Below, piece by piece: positions 6,931 through 19,900 of a DNA stretch of 64,000 nt; the stretch's first letter is position 1, and each line of letters opens with the position of its first letter. The notes beneath the pieces are model-generated. The model saw only the letters and a program-made list of their open reading frames with translations. It was not told where the DNA came from and did not search any database. The translations under genes were made by a program, and so were the position numbers. The stretch comes from Deuterostichococcus epilithicus (taxonomy: Eukaryota; Chlorophyta; Trebouxiophyceae; Prasiolales; Stichococcaceae). The stretch lies in assembly GCA_033439295.1 (NCBI GenBank), contig JAVTLE010000003.1, positions 2,542,001 to 2,606,000 of the forward strand, read 5' to 3'.

Positions 6931-7176
6931 TCCGCCAACAGTCAGTCCTATACTCAATCGTCTGTGTAGTGCGTGCTAGCCTACTCATCTTTTCGAACAC
7001 TATACAGCGTGTTCCACTACACATACAGTTCAGATATCGAACAACGCTCATGCAAGTACGGGATTTCAGTGTCGCATGGGGACAGTACTAGTTCTTGTTG
7101 GACTGGAAAGCAATGTTTCGTTCCCCCTACTTTTTCACGGGCCTCGCTGATGACTGGCGCCGGCAAATGCGGCAGC

Positions 7177-8451
7177 CTATTCGGCTGCCTCTGTCAAGCA
7201 CACCCAGTCATCCTCTTCAGTGCTGCTGTCCTCGAAGGCCGACAGCTCGTCGTCGTCAGACACCCGGCCGCCAACAAAGCCAACGCCCGCGGTCTCATCC
7301 TCGTCCGCCGCCTCGTCCATCGCGATGATGACGGCAGCGGGTCCCAGCTCCTGCAAAGATGCACGCCCATGCAGTTGTTGCCAGCAAATGCGTAGCTGCT
7401 GCTCTGGTGCTCATTTGCAAACCGTGCATGCACTGGGAAGCGCTCCGCCACAGCATAGACGCTTAGACAAGTCCACCTCGAAACCAACAGCGAGTGTATT
7501 GCGGATCATGCACACAGGTTTTGGTTTGGTAGACTAGTCGGAGGGGGAGTATCACCTCGGCGCTGATAGGCGCTGCTTCTGCCGAGGGCCTGCCATCTCC
7601 GGCAGCGGGCAGCGGCGCAAAGAGCGCCAATGGCGTGCCGGCCACGGTTCCGTAGGGCGCAGCATCGTCGCCGGCCGGCGGCGCAGCTGCCCATGGCGGC
7701 GATGCGGCGGCCGCCGGGGCGCCCCACTTGATGCCGGCCAGCTTGATAGAGGACGCCCTCACGATGCGCCCCGGCGGCGCTGCCGAAGCTGCAACACTGT
7801 ACTCGTGTGCGGGCAGCGGCATCGGCCACGGCGGCGTGGTGGCACTCCCCTTGGTGCCGGCCGGCGCGGCAAACAGCGGTGCGGGCGTGCTAGCCGCAGC
7901 GCCGTAGGGCACGGCATCCCCGCCAACTACCGGTGCGGCGGCCCACGGCGATGGCATGGCGGCCGCTGGAGCGCCCCACTTGATGCCGGCCAGCTTGGTG
8001 AAGGACGCTGCCGCATCCACGATGCGGCCCGGCGGCGCCGCCGGAGCCGCAACGCTGTACTCGTGCGCAGGCAGCGGCGTCGGCCACGGCGGCGAGCACT
8101 CTGCTGAAGTGGGCCGCACCAGAACTGAGCAGGCCACCGCCGCCGCCTCCTCCCACTTGATGCCCGCCAGTTTGATCGGCTCGAAGGCTGTCGTATACTT
8201 GCCGGCCGCCGCCGCCGATGGGTTGGGCACACACTTGATACCGGCCAGCTTGAGCGGCTTGAAGGCGGTCTTGGCCTTCACCTGCTGCGCAGCAATAGGA
8301 GATCCAAGTCAGCTTGCCAAGCAGTCGCTGAACATGCACCAAGTTTCATCCTCAGGCCCAAGTTTCCAGCAAGTAAACTGTCGGCACACATGATGCTGCC
8401 GCCGCTGTCGAACTGGTAGTGTTATAACAAAAGGAATCTCCTCCTTGCTCA
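7177..8451 (-). CDS. LAGIKW-repeat protein with acidic C-terminal W-x-x-L (LIR/AIM-like) motif
   Basis: I do not recognise this family. Proposed exons: start near 8451 to about 8389 (MSKEEIPFVITLPVRQ...), 7556-8284 and 7177-7350, all joined in phase 0, giving about 321 residues. The large exon carries four copies of KLAGIKW (the first ends in C), each preceded by an AF or S-rich lead. The last two copies sit in a longer repeat that also holds PLPAHEYSVAA and APPGRIV. Spacers are Ala/Pro-rich. The last exon is acidic and ends EEDDWVCLTEAAE. Trp-x-x-Leu after a run of acids fits the ATG8-interacting motif (LIR/AIM), a short motif that also occurs by chance. The next gene upstream is the FRB protein in the same orientation; its exon at 8742 could also splice in frame to 8284, so a single fused gene is possible. 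Confidence 0.65.
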
Positions 8452-8508
8452 TGACAGGCACGCATTTTGTCAGGCCCCCGACAAATGCTGTCGCTCTCGC
8501 GTGGGCAA

Positions 8509-11388
8509 CTAGCTGAATAGCCGACCCTCACTGCCCCTGCTCTCGAACGGCATGGAGGTCCCCAACATTACGCTGCTTGCTGGTACATGGAGCTGCCCTG
8601 GCGAGCACCTCATTTGCGCTGGGGGTCCATGCGACAGGCAACTGGGACATGGCAGCCGAAGCACGAAAGCTCTGTCACAACTCTCGAGTGCTTTCGACTG
8701 ATAAATGAACCCTCGTAGAAGCAGAAGAGGAAGCCAGGCACCTGGGCTTGCACGAGCGCAGGCGCCACGTAATGTGGATCCAGCGTGGTAATCAGCTGCG
8801 GCAGCTGCTTCTTGATGCGCTTGAAGACGTGGTGGTACAGGTCCCAGGCCTGGTGCAGGTCGGAGTCCTTGCACGACAGCCGGTACTTGTGGAGCCACTC
8901 CCCCGCCTCACTGAGCTGGAAGCCGTACGCCTGCAGACCTCCCGAGAATGGGGAGGGTCAGGCTCCGCATGTGCCGCTTGGTGTCTGGCGGTATTTGCTA
9001 CACCAGCCGCCCGCTTTGCTCAGCTTGCGGCCAGACGTTTGAGGATGGCTGAAACACTACAGGTCTTATGTACAACACATCATGTGGTCTCCACCACTCG
9101 CCCACCTCGCTTGGCTCGTGGTCACGCGCCTGCACAGCCAGGGTCGGAGATGGTGGCAGTTGGCAGATGTTCAGGGGTCGAGGCCCTCATGAACGAAGAT
9201 TTGGGACAGCCAGCCGTTGGCAAAGGCGACATCAGGAGGCCGAAAAGGTGGCTCAGGAAACAGAAGTGCCCTGTCAAATGCCTGTCCCCATACCAGGTCG
9301 CTTATGTCCCTGGCGGCACAGCATCAGACCTCAGCGCCCATTGCACCAATGAGCGTATGGTGTCATCCGTCCATGGGCCATGGCTGGCTCCAGCGTGAAG
9401 ATGCTGTGTGCATGGCAGACCCTGCTACTACGCAGGAGCCTCATGCTCTGCAAGTCCCTCCCATGCATGCATCGCTCGAGATTTTGAGCAATGCGTCAAA
9501 AAGCCACTGTGAGAGGCTCTGCATACTGGTAGCATCGGGCAAGGTTGGATTTAGGCAGGGTTTGCGAGCGGCTATACAGTCTTCACACACCTGGACGAAG
9601 GCGATCTCCTTGGGGGTGGTCGGCACCAGCTTCTCCATCACGTCGTGCAGCGGCGTGAGCACCGCCAGCCTGCCGGAGACACTGTACTCGCCAAAGTAGA
9701 GTCGGCTCGCCTCCACCAGCGCCTCATGCCACATCTCGTGCCACAGGGTGGCCAAGCCGTAGAGCTCCTGACTCGCCTGCGGGAGATGAGATTGGGAAAG
9801 CACCTTCAGCCTTTGATCGGCCGGGCGGCGCTGCTGCGTGCAGAACTAGCAACGTGACGCACTTCCGGGCAACCTCGCTCAGCTCTAATGCTGGCCCGGC
9901 GCTGTGCTGCGGCCATCTCCATCACACCTGTGTGAAATACCCCTGACGAACCCGCTGCTGCAACCACCGAGCCTGATGCTGGAAGCCACGCACGCAAAGC
10001 TCTACAGGCGCGAAAGGAGTCAGCAGGAAAGCCGCACCGGCGTGCTGCGCAGCGCCAGCGCCAGGGAGTCGATGGTGGCCTGGAGGAACAGCACCGTGGC
10101 AGCTGCGGCGTCGCCGTCGTCGACCGCCGCGTCCAGCAGCCGCCGCGGCTCCGCCAGCCACACCTGGAGGAATTGCAGCAGGGCCGGCGAGGTGAATCGC
10201 AGAGACCACCGCAGCAGGCACTGGCATGGCAGCACGCTGTCACACCCCACTGAACAGAGCCAAGGAGGGCAGCGCCCGGAAGCGCAGGGCTACCCGGATG
10301 GAGATATGCTCGGGGGCACGAAACTGCTGCACGCAGCCGGAGGGGCGCCACACCTCGCTCCAATAGGGTAAGCAATTGCTAGGTGGCAACGATGCAGCAG
10401 CGGCTTTGCCTTGGCTAGATTTCAGTGTTGCAGCGCACCTCGTTCAGCAGCGCGTCCCTGGTGTTCTGGGCGCCAATGGCACCGCTCTGCACCTCCAGCG
10501 CCATGGCTGCGGCCAGGTGCCAAAAGCCAGGTCGAAGTCAATATATTGCGGGAAGAACCTCGCAAATGCGTGCAGTGGCGGAGTGCAATGAGCGCCAGGT
10601 CCACTCAGCAAATGGATACCGTCCAGTTTGATAAGATCTGGACTAATGCATGAAGGCAGTGCATTTCGTACTTGCGCATGGGATGCAAGGCTCTCATCAG
10701 TAAGCAGCGGTGGTGACACAAAGGCATGGCTGCACCTCGTACGACGGTGTCGACGCGTGCGGCGTGCTCCAGGGTGGCGGCCTTGCAGCTGCGCTCGGTG
10801 CTCCTGTCCGGCAGCAGTCGCCGGGACAGCGCCGCCACCGCCGCCTTGACATCCCAGTCAGCCGAGAATACCGGGCGGCACTGCTTGCAAAGGCAGCTGC
10901 CCTGCGCGGTAGCGGGCGGCAGGGAAATTAGTGCCATGCTGAAGCCGGGTGAGCAGCAGTGCAGCACAGCAGCGGGCGGGTGTCACACGAGCAAGGACGG
11001 ATACGTGCCTGCCAGCTCATCCATGCATATACTGTTTGTTGCTGCTGAAAACCCGCAGTTTTGGTCATAATGCGGACGAGCAGCAGTGCAGGTGGTATGT
11101 ACCAGAGACCAGGTGCCAGATGCAGAGGCAAGTTGGCGCTACAATGCGACAAGCAGCAGTGGAGCAAAGTCTGCGGCCATGCAGTGGCATCACGGGCGAA
11201 GCTGCATGCACACACCGTCGAGTCTGTGGGGCAGGCCTTCTGCAGGGCAGCCGCATTCGCGTGCAGGTGGGCCATGACCCCCACACTGTGCGAGCCGCCG
11301 GCCTGCAGCAGCACGGCGGACTCGCGCGCCGTCGCCGCCACCCGCTGAAGGATGCAGTTGACGCTGTTGATGGTGCCCGCCTTGTTGT
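8509..11388 (-). CDS. TOR-type FRB-domain protein without a kinase domain (5' end unresolved)
   Basis: Exons 9591-9776 and 8742-8930 encode a full FRB domain (the FKBP12-rapamycin-binding region of TOR): LWHEMWHEALVEASRLYFGE through QAWDLYHHVFKRI and KKQLPQLITTLDPHYVAPAL. A 33-base exon, 9874-9906, supplies the HS...ASQEL lead of TOR at the exact family spacing. Ser and Phe of ASRLYF and Trp of QAWDLY are kept; the position of human Tyr2105 is His. Upstream exons 10038-10163, 10439-10506, 10736-10880 and 11216-11388 chain in phase but do not look like FAT or HEAT repeats. TOR should continue into ELAVPGTY and the PI3K-like kinase. Instead the likely last exon, 8509-8592, ends in TAG after 27 residues, and the next gene starts about 60 bases on. 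No kinase motif (GDRHPSN, DFGD) occurs in the window. It could be a stand-alone FRB protein, a truncated TOR paralogue or an assembly misjoin. Confidence 0.72.
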
Positions 11389-13908
11389 CTGCGGCGGCGT
11401 GCTTCGATATGAACACAGCAGGCGCGGGTTGCCATAGGCATGTAGTGGGACATCAAGGTGTTTGCACTCAGCAGTCACTGACTGTTGAACGCCGCGTCAC
11501 TGCAGGGATACAGACAACATGCACCTAATGGCTCGCGTACAGGCGTTTGAAAAGCCTTGCATCCGCCACATGTATGCTGGGCACGCTGCCGGATGGCAGG
11601 GTGCGCGCCTGCGGAGTTGACCTTCGGGACGGATGCGTTCACGCACAGCATCCTCGAGTCGGTGGCCGGTAGATCGCGTGTCGCAGGCTCGCAGCTGCCC
11701 TTTTTCAGCTTGATTGCCTCCAGAGCGGGGCACCTCCATGCGTCGGCTTTGGCGTGGTAGGTGTATGTGAACGTAGCGGCGGAAGATGCCGCACCTGCGA
11801 TGCTCCTGCCATTGCCTGTCCCAGCCATGACGTAGCTTGTCTGCAGCAGCATTGCGCGCGATTTAATTCCCAATGTCGCTCAGGCAAGCATCCTCGCCTG
11901 CATGCAGCACTATGGATACCAAGCCCTGGACTGCATGCAGGTGTGACATCCGCCACGCTGAAAACGCTGGCGGCAGTCTGCAACAGCTGTCTGCAGCTCC
12001 ATCCCTCTGGAGAACTGATTTGTAACAATACTGAATGCTTAGGGCTGCAAATCCGCTGGAATTTTGCAACAGTAGTTGCCCTTTGGCAAGCTGTATGCCT
12101 GCTCTGCGAGTGGCCGTTGTCAGCATGCTGGTCATGCAATAATGATGCCGAATGGCGTTTAGAGCACTAGGCTGAGTGATAGAAAAGAATCGAGATGCGC
12201 AGCTCCTACGGAGCAACCTGCTTCTCGTCGATCGTGCTGCTGAGATTTAAGACATCACAACTTCGGCAGACTGGACTCGCAAAGATCAGGCATCATGGAA
12301 CATACCTTGCAACGAAGTTTCTGATCCTGTACAGCACTAACTCCCCGGCGCTGCCGGCGCAGCACCGTTGAACCTGTAGACAGGGCGAACGACAAAGGTG
12401 TCAGTGCCAGGACGGTGTCTTTTCAAATCCACCGTGGGAAGGGCTGGATCCTTGAGTCCGTCTCAGAATAGAGCTGGCGAGATGATCAGCTCGTTCTGCA
12501 TGGCCCAGAGCAGCCTAGCTGCCCATGCTGCCAATTCGTCTCTGACGCATCTCCATTCCATGCTGCCCTTCGCCGCCAGGCGCAGGTGACGCCGCGCGAT
12601 AAGGACCGCTGCATAAGCCTAGCTCCTGCTTCAAGTCCTGCATCAGATTGTAATCGCTAGGGCTTTCATCACTGGAACTCGCTCACGGCGTGTGACGATG
12701 GTGACGCTGGTGACGCGGCGTCCCGTCCTCTTTGCGTCCTCCTGCTGCATATGACGCTGCAGATAAGCGTCGGAGCTGTTATGGCTTCGCGATAGCTTTC
12801 CGAAGTCTGCCACTGTAAAGACTCAAACGCGATGACAATTGTGCCACACCCTGCGAAACTCCAAACCCCCTTCCGCAAAGCGAGAAGTTTTACCGCCACC
12901 CCTAAGTTGAGGGGTATTTCACCAAAAAGGCCGGGTCTACTCATCCATGCTGATTTGTGGCTGGATGAAATGTGAGGACCGACCGCATGAGTGCAACGAA
13001 AAGCTAAGCATTTCCGTTTCTGCACAAGACACACACTTGTGCTCCGCCCACTTGTTCGCCGCACGCTGCCGGCGCCATCAAGAACTAAACAAGACCTCTG
13101 AGGTGGGACTCTCATGCATAATGGTATGCATTGATCATGCCGGACATCCAAGTGGCAAGAAATGGAATGAAGCAACTTATCACAACTTACAACGAAAATG
13201 GTTCAAGCAATGTCTAAACAATAAAGATGAAACGCCGGAATGCACACACATTGAAATCCGATTTCCATTCGCAGGAGGCGCCACGCACTCAGTCATGACG
13301 ACCTTGCATGCTCTGGGTCTGACGGTTTCTGTCCCGTGTGCCTGATGCAAGGCTCCGGGGATCGCACGCGGCACGCGCTGCAAGCAGCGCCCCTGCCAGC
13401 AGATGTCTCAGAGCCGCGGGCGGCACACATGCCACCGCCGACAAGCAAACCGGCCGCTGCGCCACCCAGGTCATCGAACACAACCGAGTGGAGTGCCGTC
13501 ATCTTGGGGCCGCAGCAAATCAGGCCCCGAGGCAGCCTGCACGTGTGCTGCCGATCAGCAGGTCGCCTCGCCAGGCGAAAAATGGTTGCTGCAACGCCGA
13601 CAGGCACTGGCCGCTGCTACACAGCAACACAGCACGGCAGAGGGCACCCGTAAACCCCATGCAAGCTACCTACTGCTCGAATTCTGTTTTAAACATGCAC
13701 TCCCCAGTTCCTAAAATTATACGCAGCCATGCCAGATCCGCTGTGCGCGAGGCACCTGCTCGGCAATGAAGACTGAATTGCCTCTCCCATCTTTGGAGCT
13801 ATGCCTGGCGGCCGGCTTCAAAGCTGGTCTGCATGGCAGCGTCAACGCCAGCTGGCATTGCTGCATCCACATTGGCTGGCAGCCGGCATCAGCTCTGGAG
13901 AAAGAGCT
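11389..13908. other. Unresolved region with exon-like pieces and a GC-poor patch
   Basis: This 2.5 kb should hold the 5' end of the FRB gene. Minus-strand stretches at about 11560-11710 and 12466-12590 look exon-like (for example MEWRCVRDELAAWAARLLWA), but I could not connect them in phase. Around 12940-13350 the base composition drops and a 132-residue plus-strand open frame with many Cys and His appears; it has no homologue I recognise. Confidence 0.35.
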
Positions 13909-16900
13909 TCATGTGGCGGCAGCCTGTCGGTCGCCCGGCGACGCTGATTGCCGCTGGTCGCCAGCCTCAGGCTGCACCTCAGGCGCTGAAGGCCTAGGCT
14001 CCGCAGCGCGTGCCAGCCCTTTGCTGGCGTCAGAGGCCGCCTGTGGCGCCTCAGCCGGCTGCACCGGCGGATCTGCGGTCGCCTGATGAGGCGGCACCGC
14101 CTCGCTTGCCGACGGCAGCGCCGGTTCCTGCCTCTGCGGGGCGAAGTCCGGCGAGGCCGCCGGCTGCAGGGCGGCCATGGAAGCCGCCCTGCTGGCGGCC
14201 ATGGGGGCCGCCTGGCTGGCAAACAGTGAGGCCGTCCGGTCAGCCGTCGCCCGCGGCGACAGCTGCGGCGACAGCTCGCGGGCCAGCCGCTGACCCGCCG
14301 CTGCTGATGTCGTCGCCTGCGGCTGCGCTGGGTGCTGCCTGCCGGCGGCGCCGCCGCCGGCGGCCACCGCCGGCTGCTGCGCCGCGGCGGAGAAAGGCGT
14401 CTGCGGCTGCGGCTGCGGCGGCGCGGCGGCTGCTGCAGCGGCGGCAATGCTGCCCTGCTGGTGCAGTGCCGCGAGCCACGGCAGGTGCAGGCTCTGCAGC
14501 TGCAGGCTGGTCTCCGCCCATGAGATGGCTGCGCAGGGGTAGCGCCGGCAGACACGTCAGTCACTGTGTTGTGGGCATCGACTCAGGCTTCAAAGCAGAA
14601 GACCAGTTCGACAGCGTTTGGACCTCCGAGCAGCAGCGGAGGCTGCTTCTCGAAGGCACAGGTGCATTAGATTGATCTAAGGAAGGACAAACATCTTTCA
14701 ACCCACAGCGCAGAAAGGCACGGTATGCACAATTCTTGGGAGATTTGCGGCCCAAGGTGTGCCATCAGCTGGTCGGTGAAGGCCATGTGTGGGTGGCAGA
14801 CAAGGTGCAGCGATGGAGCATGGAAACGGAACAGCGGCGCACTTGCGACGGCGTACTGCCGCAGCGGCAGCACCCGGCCCGCCTCCGTCAGGTATTGTTC
14901 CCAGAGCCTGCAGGGAACGATGGTGGCAATGAGCACTTGCAGCTGGCAGCCACATGTAGAAGGGATGGATGGGGTTGGCACAGAGAGAAGCGCAAGGGGC
15001 GAACACGGCTGAACGCGAATGCTGGCGCTGATGGGGCACATTCGAGCCAGAAGACGCATCAGATCGGCAGCGAAAGCATCATTCGCACAGCTACCAGGCT
15101 ACGCACACAGAAGCAACAGGCGCAAACGACAGGAAAGCCGAAAGATGAGGAACGGGAGCAAAAGGCGCACCTGTCGGGCTGCAGCAGCAGCATGCGCATT
15201 GCGTCCAGGCGCCCGAGCACCTCTGAGCCTCCCCACGCTGCCAGCAGGTCCTGGTATGCGGCGCCACCCGCAGCGCCTGCGGAGCAGGAGGACCATTGAG
15301 TTCCAGGGCTGCGGGCTGACTCGAGCTCAAGCCTTGGACCCTGCTGTCAGCGGGTGCTGGTGTGCAGCGCCCAACCGCGCTGCCTGCAATGCAGCAGAGA
15401 CACGGTGCGGGGCGCGCGTCGCAAGCTGGCGCCGCGCAGAGGGGGGACCCTGCGCTCGCCGTGCATAGCACATGTCCCATCGCAGCCGGCGAGGCCATCT
15501 CGGAGCGCAACCGACCTGCGCCGCTGAGCACCGCCTCGTCCACGCCGGCGGCCGAGGCGCGCTGCGAAGAGGCGCGCTCGCGCATGCCGGAAAGCATGTC
15601 CGCGTAGCCGACGCCGATGATGCGCTCCTGCTCCGCCAGCGACGCCTGCGGTGACGCAAATTTGATGAGCACATGTCTCACAACTCATTCAATCAATGAG
15701 CTGCTGCTCCGCAACTGACGCCTGCGGTGGGGAACACCTCCTCAGGAACTCACCACAGCCGGTGAGCTGCGCCGGGTGCCGGCCTGTTGCCCATCACTTC
15801 GTGAGCGCACGCGCAGCAGCGTCAGGAGCTCTGCAGCAGCGGCAGCAGCGGCGGCAGCGGCGGCAGCAGCAGCAGCGGCTCTGATCTGCTGCGGGAGGGG
15901 GGGAACAGGCGCTGTGAAGGTGAGTCGGGATGCTGCTCCGAGGAGGAAAAGGGAGACACTAAACCCTGCATCCTGCTCCCGCACCCGCAGCGTGTGTAGG
16001 CGCCCCAGCGCCTGGGGCTCGACGCTGGGCCCCAGCTTGACCAGCAGCCCGGCCACGGCCTCCGACGGCCGCAGCGCCCCCAGCCACGCGTACGGCCGCT
16101 CGCTGGGCAGCAGGTGCTCGCCGTTCATCATCAGCACGGCGCTCTCCCTGCAGGGGCAAGCGCAAGGCGTCAGGCACGGTCGCAGGTGCGCTGTGCAGTT
16201 GGCTAACCAGTGTGGCGTGTAGGGTGGCCTCCTTTATCGCGCAGCCCACACCTCAGGCGACATTCTCCTCGAACCTCATGCCTCGCGTTGTCTGTCCATG
16301 AACGAGATCGCCAACTGTGCAGCTGAAACTCGAATGCAAAGTCGGACTGGAACGCCTCCAGTGCGGGGGCGTCCGGGTGCCAAGGATAAGCAGGTGACCT
16401 CAGCACGGTGCTTCGAGATAGCCGCAGCAGGGATTAGGGGTTGGGGCCAAAAGACCTCACCCGCCGAGCACGGCGCGCTTGAGCTGGAAGTAGGCCCACA
16501 GCTCGTCCTGGGCGGCAGCGACCAGGCGTCGCAGCTCTGCCTCCTCCGTGGTCAGCGTCTCCAGGGCACGCCGCACCGCCAGCGCCGTGCGCACATGACC
16601 TGCCCGCCACTTTTCAAAGGCCTGCGGCACAGACGGTCGCCGGCGTCAGACTCTAAACCGCCAGAGCGCAGGCGCGCCAGCACCATGCCCCCGCATGATG
16701 CAGCAGCCTCACCACTGGTCAAGCTTGTGAAGGCTGTTACGGTTCAAATGGTGCACACCCTGCAGCCCTTGTGTCAAAGAGGATGGGCAGGTCAAGATGC
16801 GGGTAAACCCTCAACCCTTTCTCGAAAATCGCACCGCGTGGACCTCGGCGGTGAGCGACGCCTGCGCGCGGGTCGCAGCGGCGCCCGGCAGGTGCAGGCT

Positions 16901-19900
16901 GCCGACGCTGAGGGTGCGGGAGCCGGGGCCCAGGCCTGAGGCGCCGCTGGGTTCGCCGCTGGCGTCCACGCCGCCGCCGGGGTCGCCGCTGTGGCCCTGC
17001 CGCGGCGTCTCCCGCAGGTTGGAGCCGCCTGGATTGACGAAGGAACGAGTTCAAGCAAGCGATGGCGGGCTTTTGAGACGCCCTCTGAAATGAAGGGTGC
17101 AGTGAGGCGGCCGGACTCAGGGCATCAGCCATATGCAGAGAGGGCATGTGGAGTCCCTGGCCAAGTGCTTGCAGGGAGTTGCAAGGAGCACGTATACGAG
17201 TACGTGCCACAAAGCAGGGCTGCAGGCGCATACTAAAAACCAGCACGCTGGGCACTGAAGAGAGGCTGGCCAGGCAATGCTTATGCAGGCACTCTTCACA
17301 GTTTAACACCAGGGACTTCGCGGGGCGGATCTACTAGACCCTAAGAAACCATACCTTCAGAGGGCGCGCCGCCGCCGCCAAAGACCGGCATGACCAGCGG
17401 CGCAGGCGGCTCGCTCGTCGGCGCCCCGCCATCTGACGACAGCCGCGTGAAGCGGAAGCTGACCTCGCTGGCCAGCGGCGCCGGGCTGGCGTCGCTCCTG
17501 CAGACAGACAACACACATACATCATGTCAGGAAATTAACCAAATGGAGAGAGCCCCCCGCTGCACATTGAGGTAGCTGCGACGCAGCTGCCAGAGCTGCT
17601 GGCGACACATTGAGCCGGGGGGAGGTAGTGCAGCGTCTCGGCAGTGCAGCGCCTGAACCCTAAGTCCTCAACGCTAGGCCAGGCGAACACGCATGCGGAT
17701 TGCATCAGCGGGCGCATGCTGGCTCTGGCAGGAGGCAGCTGCCGCGGCAGCGGGTTCCCTGCTCAGGGGCCATGGCTAGGACTCGGTGCTCCTGCTAGTC
17801 AGCGCACGGCTGTTGCAGGACTATGAGCGGGATTCGCGCCGGCGCAAGTGACGGAGCAGCAATGGCAGCTCACACAGCCTTGGCAGCCTTGTGTCTGCCA
17901 CACATATCACACTGCAAGCCAGCAACTCAACGCTGACCTCTGTGAGTCATGGCATGGTACGTTTGGCTGCACACAGGCAGCTGACAGGCTGTCTCAATGG
18001 GGATGGAGCCAAGCCATGCGAGGCTGGTGTGAGCCGAATGCTGATGTACACTAGCTACGCGCAAAAGTACAGTCTTGGCACCAAAAGGGCAGTACGGGAC
18101 AGCCTTAGCAAGCTCAGGCTGGTACGCTGGGTGATTTGTGTACCTTGGGTTCGGCAGCACATTGTAAACCCGTTTTCCAGACACGTACCCTCCAATAGCA
18201 CTCAGATTCATGGCAACAGCTTGGTGCGCTGTCATGCCCTGCTGTTGGCATGCGCTTGCAGACAGCCTGGCAATGCTGTCCCAGCCCTGGCCCAGCGCCC
18301 CCTTTTGCCTCTTGCCTGTGAGCCTGTAAAAGGCGCAGCCATCGCTCGGTCCCGCTGTACTGGTTCGCAATGTTCGCAAGGCATCGATCTGCCATGACGG
18401 GGCCGCACCTCGAGGGGGCAGAGCTGCTGACGGGGCCGGCGTTGCGGCCGGCGCCGCCACCGCCGCCGCCGGCGGCAGTCACCTCCGCGCTGAGCTCGGC
18501 TGCAGCAAAAGGTGACGTCGGCGGCGGCGGCGGCGGCACCATCTGCGCCAGCAGGCTCCGCGTCAGCGTGCTGCTCCCAACGCCCACAGTCCTGCGGGCA
18601 GCAAGCGAAGAAGAACGTCAGCCGGGCTGCCATCTGCACAAACTTCATTTGCACAGCACCCGGTATACAGGCACTACTTGGTCGGACTTGCAGATGCGGC
18701 CATGAGCTGCCTCGCCGGCTTTGTCACGAACTGCGATGGTCAGGACCCCGCCATGGACCACAGGTGCGGCAACAGGTGAGGGAACTGCTGCCATCGCAGG
18801 TCTCGCACTCCCATGTGAGGCACTCACTGCGCGTTGCTGAGCTCCCGCAGGCTCTGTTGCAGCGCGCTCATCGTGGGGCGTGCCACCTGCGAGCTGCCCG
18901 TGCGCAGCTGCGGCGCTGCTGCCGCGAGGGCAGCCGCCGCCTCAATCTCCCCGCGCCGCACCTTCTCATTGAGCTGCGACATTGAGCAGTCGAGGGGTTC
19001 AGGGGCCAGGCTCACTGGCTGTTGCCAGGAAGGCGGCGGCACCCCGGCCAGCTGCAGCGCTGCCCCGCTGCCGGCCGCGGCGGCACATCAGCTCTGCTGG
19101 CAGACCGCTTGTACGCAAACTTTGTGTGCTGTCACCAGTGGTCATTCCCGCCGGCTCACCCTGTAACAGCGCCAGCGCCCAGCGATGGGCGCACAGCCCA
19201 CACCATGCCCTGTTGGCTACCGTGGCACACAGCACGCTGCCCAGCTCCGCCAGGAGACCAAACCCTGTCTGCGCGGGGCCAGTCTACAATCACCACAGCT
19301 GCGATGTCGCATACAACCCGCACGCACCTCGACCTCGAGCTGCTTCATGTAGTCCTTCTTGCGCTGCCGTGACTTCCGGGCCGCCTCCCGATTCTGCGCC
19401 AGGCGCCGCTGCACCTTTTCGTCCAGTGCCGCATAGTCCTTTCGGCCGCCGCGGCCCCGACCGCCGCCGCCGCCGCCTCCGCCCTCGCTGCCGTCCGACA
19501 CGCTCTTGCGCTGCGGTGAATGGGCGGGCGACATTTGGTCAGGGGGAGCGGTGGTGCCGCTGGATGTTGGTGTGACACATCAACGGCTGCGGGGTTTTGA
19601 CATCTGCACTGCAGGAGTGGTGATGTCGTTGGATGTGCAAGCTGTGACACACGGCCGCGCGGCCGAGGCACGGCCGTACCGCCGTACTGAGGCTGGCAAC
19701 ACAGCGCTGGACGAGTCTCAATCGCAAGGCGCTGTGGCAAAGCTCGACAGCAAGCCTTGCACGGCCGCAGAAAGCAGCCGTGGAGATCTGGCACGCATCG
19801 CAGGGCTGCACCCTGTTGCTTCACCAACCACCTCTGCCGAACAGGCTTGGGTATCATGGCAGATTTAGGGTTTGGAATCTATGGCACCTTGCGCGTCTTC

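Follow-up and report, generated by a model that had tools for sequence, protein, structure and literature searches.

How does a complete FRB domain come to lie in this genome with no TOR kinase behind it, and does it make a protein of its own? FRB is generally seen as integral to TOR. Microalgal TOR is laid out as HEAT-FAT-FRB-kinase-FATC in an excerpt of one published account (PMC9664231). The window, that is, the whole 64,000-nucleotide stretch of contig C3 that we analysed, had been described in an earlier note as carrying two FRB exons, and these were confirmed: exons E and F (Table 1) lie on the minus strand and are both open, with AG and GT at their borders. Once joined, they matched Pfam FRB_dom (PF08771) over all 99 profile positions at 109.3 bits (1.2e-31), the Pfam cut-off being 24.7 bits, and this places them in the FRB family over the full profile. 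They also matched human mTOR at 1e-38.

The encoded FRB was identical to that of the TOR gene found on contig C13 (see below) at 98 of 124 aligned residues, and to the human one at 73 of 121. Relative to TOR, it showed 26 substitutions. In human numbering, Y2105 was replaced by His, as had already been noticed, and E2032 by Val. Among the residues taken here to form the ligand face (S2035, Y2038, F2039, W2101, D2102, Y2105, and F2108), 6/7 were kept, the exception being Y2105. Thus, like the FRB of the TOR kinase (human mTOR), the window copy covers the entire profile; unlike it, it comes without FAT, kinase, and FATC, has an extra codon, since exon F is one codon longer than its TOR counterpart, and bears the Y2105H change. 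Two further elements of the proposed gene model fared less well. The candidate 33-base exon placed at 9874-9906 aligned to TOR intron and had a poor coding score. Past exon F, a stop does follow, yet after 43 codons rather than about 28; this read-through was rejected as a C-terminus given its noncoding composition.

We then looked at the genome (46.8 Mb, 21 contigs). By a scan in which 6/6 candidates were scored, and by a DNA search, FRB exons turned up on C13, on C11, and in the window (C3), three loci in all. A separate TOR was found on C13, with FAT, FRB, kinase, and FATC, which ruled out the window FRB as the genome's only TOR. Its C-terminal residues, GW|CPFW followed by a stop, are divided by an intron, which explains an apparent stop within the FATC match. 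All matches to FAT, kinase, and FATC in the genome fell outside the window; the locus is therefore not a TOR kinase, in agreement with the absence reported in the earlier note.

Table 1. Features of the FRB-bearing region and of its relatives; positions are those of the window unless a contig is named.
Feature	Position	Strand	Basis or remark
Duplicated TOR segment	8356..9914	-	Homologous to C13:98993-100608; blastn and base alignment
blastn matches to the TOR locus	8356-9133 (79%); 9578-9914 (77%); 9092-9470 (64%)
Candidate exon A of orphan host gene	11216..11388	-	5' end by eye; 11213-11380 at 99th percentile
Candidate exon B	10736..10901	-	Codon score about 95th percentile; ends in phase 1
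Candidate exon C	10439..10506	-	Codon score between 95th and 99th percentile
Candidate exon D, phase 0 donor	10038..10163	-	Codon score above 99th percentile
Exon E, first FRB exon, phase 0-0	9591..9776 (186 bases)	-	FRB match, AG/GT borders, 87.6% to TOR exon
Exon F, second FRB exon, phase 0-0	8742..8930 (189 bases)	-	FRB match, AG/GT borders, 90.9% to TOR exon
Candidate exon G, KLAGIKW and PPWPxPLPAHEYSVAA repeats, phase 0 acceptor	7556..8281	-	Repeat constraint
Candidate last exon H, acidic tail ending EDDWVCLTEAAE and stop	7177..7350	-	Coding segment, acceptor TTTGCAG
C13 TOR FAT exons	C13, between 105947 and 102581
C13 TOR FRB exons	C13, 100462-100277 and 99559-99374
C13 TOR kinase exons	C13, between 98358 and 96344
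C13 TOR FATC	C13, 95083-95012
C11 FRB copy, kinase-free, intron-bearing	C11:2741452-2742739
Decayed exon F fragments	C13 about 99600-99760; window about 9090-9135; C11 about 2742150-2742205

Comparison of the whole window with C13:83001-123000 by blastn gave three matches, all within 8356-9914. In the base alignment with TOR, identity was 88% for exon E, 91% for exon F, and, with gapped columns set aside, 81-84% for the introns. A genomic stretch of TOR, 1.6 kb long and holding the two phase-0 FRB exons with intron sequence around them, was copied here. Both ends of the segment fall within TOR introns, so that precisely the FRB exons were carried along. A processed (retro) pseudogene was rejected, because the TOR introns are retained at that identity. 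Nor did the window exons show the lesions of an unprocessed pseudogene: there was no stop and no frameshift, and AG/GT were intact. No target-site duplications were found at the segment ends, the longest word in common being 8 bases. Two marks of exon shuffling were present, namely, intronic breakpoints and symmetric exon phases. In addition, we observed at all three loci that the intron before exon F carries partial, decayed repeats of that exon, covering its first 42-53 bases (two in TOR, one in the window, and one in C11); these fragments multiplied in the intron, probably before the FRB was copied.

We evaluated the surroundings of the segment with a codon model trained on PIKK exons of the same genome (1396 codons, third positions 92% G+C), and scores were ranked against random stop-free stretches. 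Candidate exons A to D were found upstream, and G and H downstream. Exon G scored above the 99th percentile in its first half and below the 90th in its second. Its two long internal repeats differed at 32/73 synonymous sites (43.8%) and 33/179 non-synonymous sites (18.4%); 35/65 differences were at third positions, a pattern absent in shifted frames. Because of this frame-specific synonymous excess, exon G is taken on sequence grounds as real coding sequence. No ATG was present in its open frame ahead of the first repeats, and well-scoring phase-0 first exons for it (within 10030-8283) began at methionines inside exon E, the alternative at 8452-8429 being low-scoring. Exon G is thus most likely translated through upstream exons. 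The idea that another gene begins immediately after the FRB, at 7463-8308, is then probably wrong: this stretch lacks an early ATG and joins the FRB in phase, and a further, downstream exon of the FRB-bearing gene is likelier than a separate gene. Junction phases were consistent throughout the candidate gene (A|B 0, B|C 1, C|D 0, D|E 0, E|F 0, F|G 0, and G|H 0). Since coding-like exons flank the FRB in phase on both sides, a stand-alone FRB, as initially proposed, appears doubtful.

Exons A-D, G, and H had no Pfam family at E 1, and no paralogue of these orphan exons was confirmed in the genome, so that the pre-insertion state was not seen. A match on C7 to exons A-D was dropped as weak (E 0.014), tblastn giving nothing better than E 0.086. 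Another weak match, at C3:21878-22048 (E 0.04), was followed within its own locus of ~3 kb, where no A-D match was found. Relatives of exon G were not found in the genome, and none was confirmed in viral contigs, where no relative of the TOR FRB was confirmed either. The acidic tail ends in EDDWVCL, which we take to resemble an autophagy (ATG8-binding) motif; this is weak evidence, since a similar motif occurs in 244/3000 shuffles of the protein. On the same strand, the neighbouring gene at 13909-19500 has bZIP and DOG1 domains, the pairing found in plant TGA factors, which points to a green alga or plant, and an ArgJ-family gene lies at about 690-2200, also on the minus strand.

We next asked how the FRB copies had evolved, counting changes unique to one copy over the 111 codons aligned in all three. 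The window copy had 2 synonymous and 20 non-synonymous changes, TOR had 7 and 3, and the C11 copy had 7 and 14. In 579 well-aligned intron columns, summed over two regions from which badly aligned columns were excluded, unique changes numbered 57, 68, and 70 for window, TOR, and C11, respectively. Assuming about 250 non-synonymous sites, non-synonymous changes were depleted relative to the intron rate in C11 (P=0.0008) and in TOR (P=8e-10), and not in the window copy (P=0.21). Amino-acid changes in the window copy hit positions common to TOR and human (17/89) about as often as the others (8/32, p=0.46). A three-branch codon model gave a window omega of 2.6, not different from 1, and fixing it at 0.2 worsened the fit relative to a free omega by 2dlnL 9.6. 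For C11, the model gave an omega of 0.16, at odds with the counts of 7 and 14, a mismatch that probably stems from the 92% G+C of third positions; on the window branch, the two approaches agreed. The plain pairwise dN/dS between window and TOR was 0.84. The picture is complicated in two ways: window-only synonymous changes, at 2, were fewer than expected (P=0.01), and window-only changes overall were rarer in exons (21/372) than in introns (57/579, p=0.02), so that some constraint on the window FRB exons may remain.

The amino acids of the window FRB thus appeared close to free, and its reading frame did not. We simulated a neutral window branch with 0.06-0.10 substitutions per site and 0.10-0.20 indels per substitution, the latter rate being taken from the intron alignment, on which the simulation depends and in which indels within intron blocks came to 0.11-0.20 per substitution, varying with gap penalties. 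Simulated indels were frame-breaking in 65-75% of cases, as against 79-93% in the introns. Both FRB frames and all four splice borders survived in 0.05-5% of neutral runs and, at 0.083 substitutions per site, in 0.2-2%. Given such low neutral survival, the copy probably had to keep its frame, though not its amino acids, for most of its life.

Taken together, we lean towards an exon-shuffled chimera in which the FRB rides as a passenger under relaxed constraint, with a frame that is still of consequence. The 1.6-kb TOR piece would have entered the intron between exons D and G of an orphan gene on the minus strand. Both FRB exons, being phase 0-0, could then be spliced in without disrupting the frame. 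The candidate product would then comprise an orphan N-terminal part, the FRB, the KLAGIKW-repeat region, and the acidic tail. Frame and splice sites would be retained, since the downstream exons depend on them, and FRB identity would be free to drift. Indeed, a passenger FRB placed ahead of constrained coding exons accounts for both the kept frame and the free amino-acid change. CHRFAM7A is presented as a partial-duplication fusion gene in an excerpt of its description (PMC8998457). The arrangement seen here is alike in that a subset of exons, with their introns, lies in frame beside foreign exons; it differs in that the TOR FRB is what was copied and in that the putative host is an orphan gene. 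No kinase-free FRB gene was present among the literature matches listed, from a search that most subscription journals lie outside, and no literature pairing the FRB domain with exon shuffling was found there.

A first alternative is a dead relic: exons E and F would sit within an intron, or else separate two genes (A-D and G-H), be skipped by splicing, and be open by luck. The near-neutral amino-acid change fits with this, and so does the in-frame TGA already borne by the C11 sister copy. Likewise, the first-exon scan did not find a gene start, the best upstream candidate (11651-11585) being in phase with exon A with a weak score of 3.7. However, a relic would have to belong to the few neutral runs in which open frames and AG/GT borders persist, its sole exon indel happens to be a whole codon, and it leaves unexplained why exon G has no ATG ahead of its first repeats and is in phase with exon F. 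We therefore regard a relic as rather unlikely.

A second possibility is a working FRB protein without a kinase, either by itself or within the chimera, which would bind substrates or regulators of TOR and act as its competitor. The window FRB matches the full profile and keeps most of the listed ligand face. As described in part of PMC6325617, the FRB of mTOR overhangs the catalytic cleft and docks substrates in mTORC1 (PRAS40, S6K1, and 4E-BP), and the isolated FRB binds the DEPTOR linker according to an excerpt of PMC8439657. The C11 copy is also informative in this respect. It resembles the window copy in having the same two exons with introns present, and the two share bases unlike TOR, for instance GCG as the first codon and the change from E to V at human position 2032; because of these shared departures, they probably derive from a common duplicate ancestor. 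In contrast to the window copy, the C11 copy is interrupted in exon E by an in-frame TGA and lengthened there by 18 inserted bases, and its exon F carries a Pro-rich insertion. Yet, despite the TGA, its amino-acid changes shun conserved positions (7/84 conserved vs 11/27 variable, p=0.0003), which points to past constraint. For the window copy, on the other hand, changes fall equally on conserved and variable positions, the non-synonymous rate is not under the intron rate, and Y2105 and E2032 have become His and Val. A functional FRB protein seems improbable here. The TOR competitor or decoy suggested in the earlier note is possible and poorly supported: the changes ignore conservation, 20/22 being non-synonymous, and this lack of constraint disfavours such a role. 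A broader version, in which a natural kinase-free FRB family left TOR, was under selection for a while on C11, and gave on C3 a chimera that docks TOR partners, would be, if anything, a shade less probable still.

Last, an assembly artefact, that is, a misjoined piece of TOR near 8.6 kb, is highly improbable, as the copy and TOR are 9-12% apart in exons and 16-19% apart in introns, TOR homology continues unbroken across 8.4-8.8 kb down to 8356, and window positions 7000-14000 contain no N.

Returning to the chimera with a passenger FRB, the earlier note was borne out as to an FRB without TOR kinase and a separate TOR elsewhere; its stand-alone protein became doubtful, and its competitor fared poorly. 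The locus is better read as a shuffled FRB module, probably within a chimeric gene and probably a passenger, than as an FRB protein standing alone. With three FRBs for one TOR, as far as found, the genome shows that two symmetric exons encode the domain and that it can move as a unit. Should any free copy be translated, its product would be a natural counterpart of the FRB used for chemical dimerisation in the laboratory, and a possible TOR competitor. If the free copies are not translated, they would offer a clear example of a kept frame around a decaying domain.
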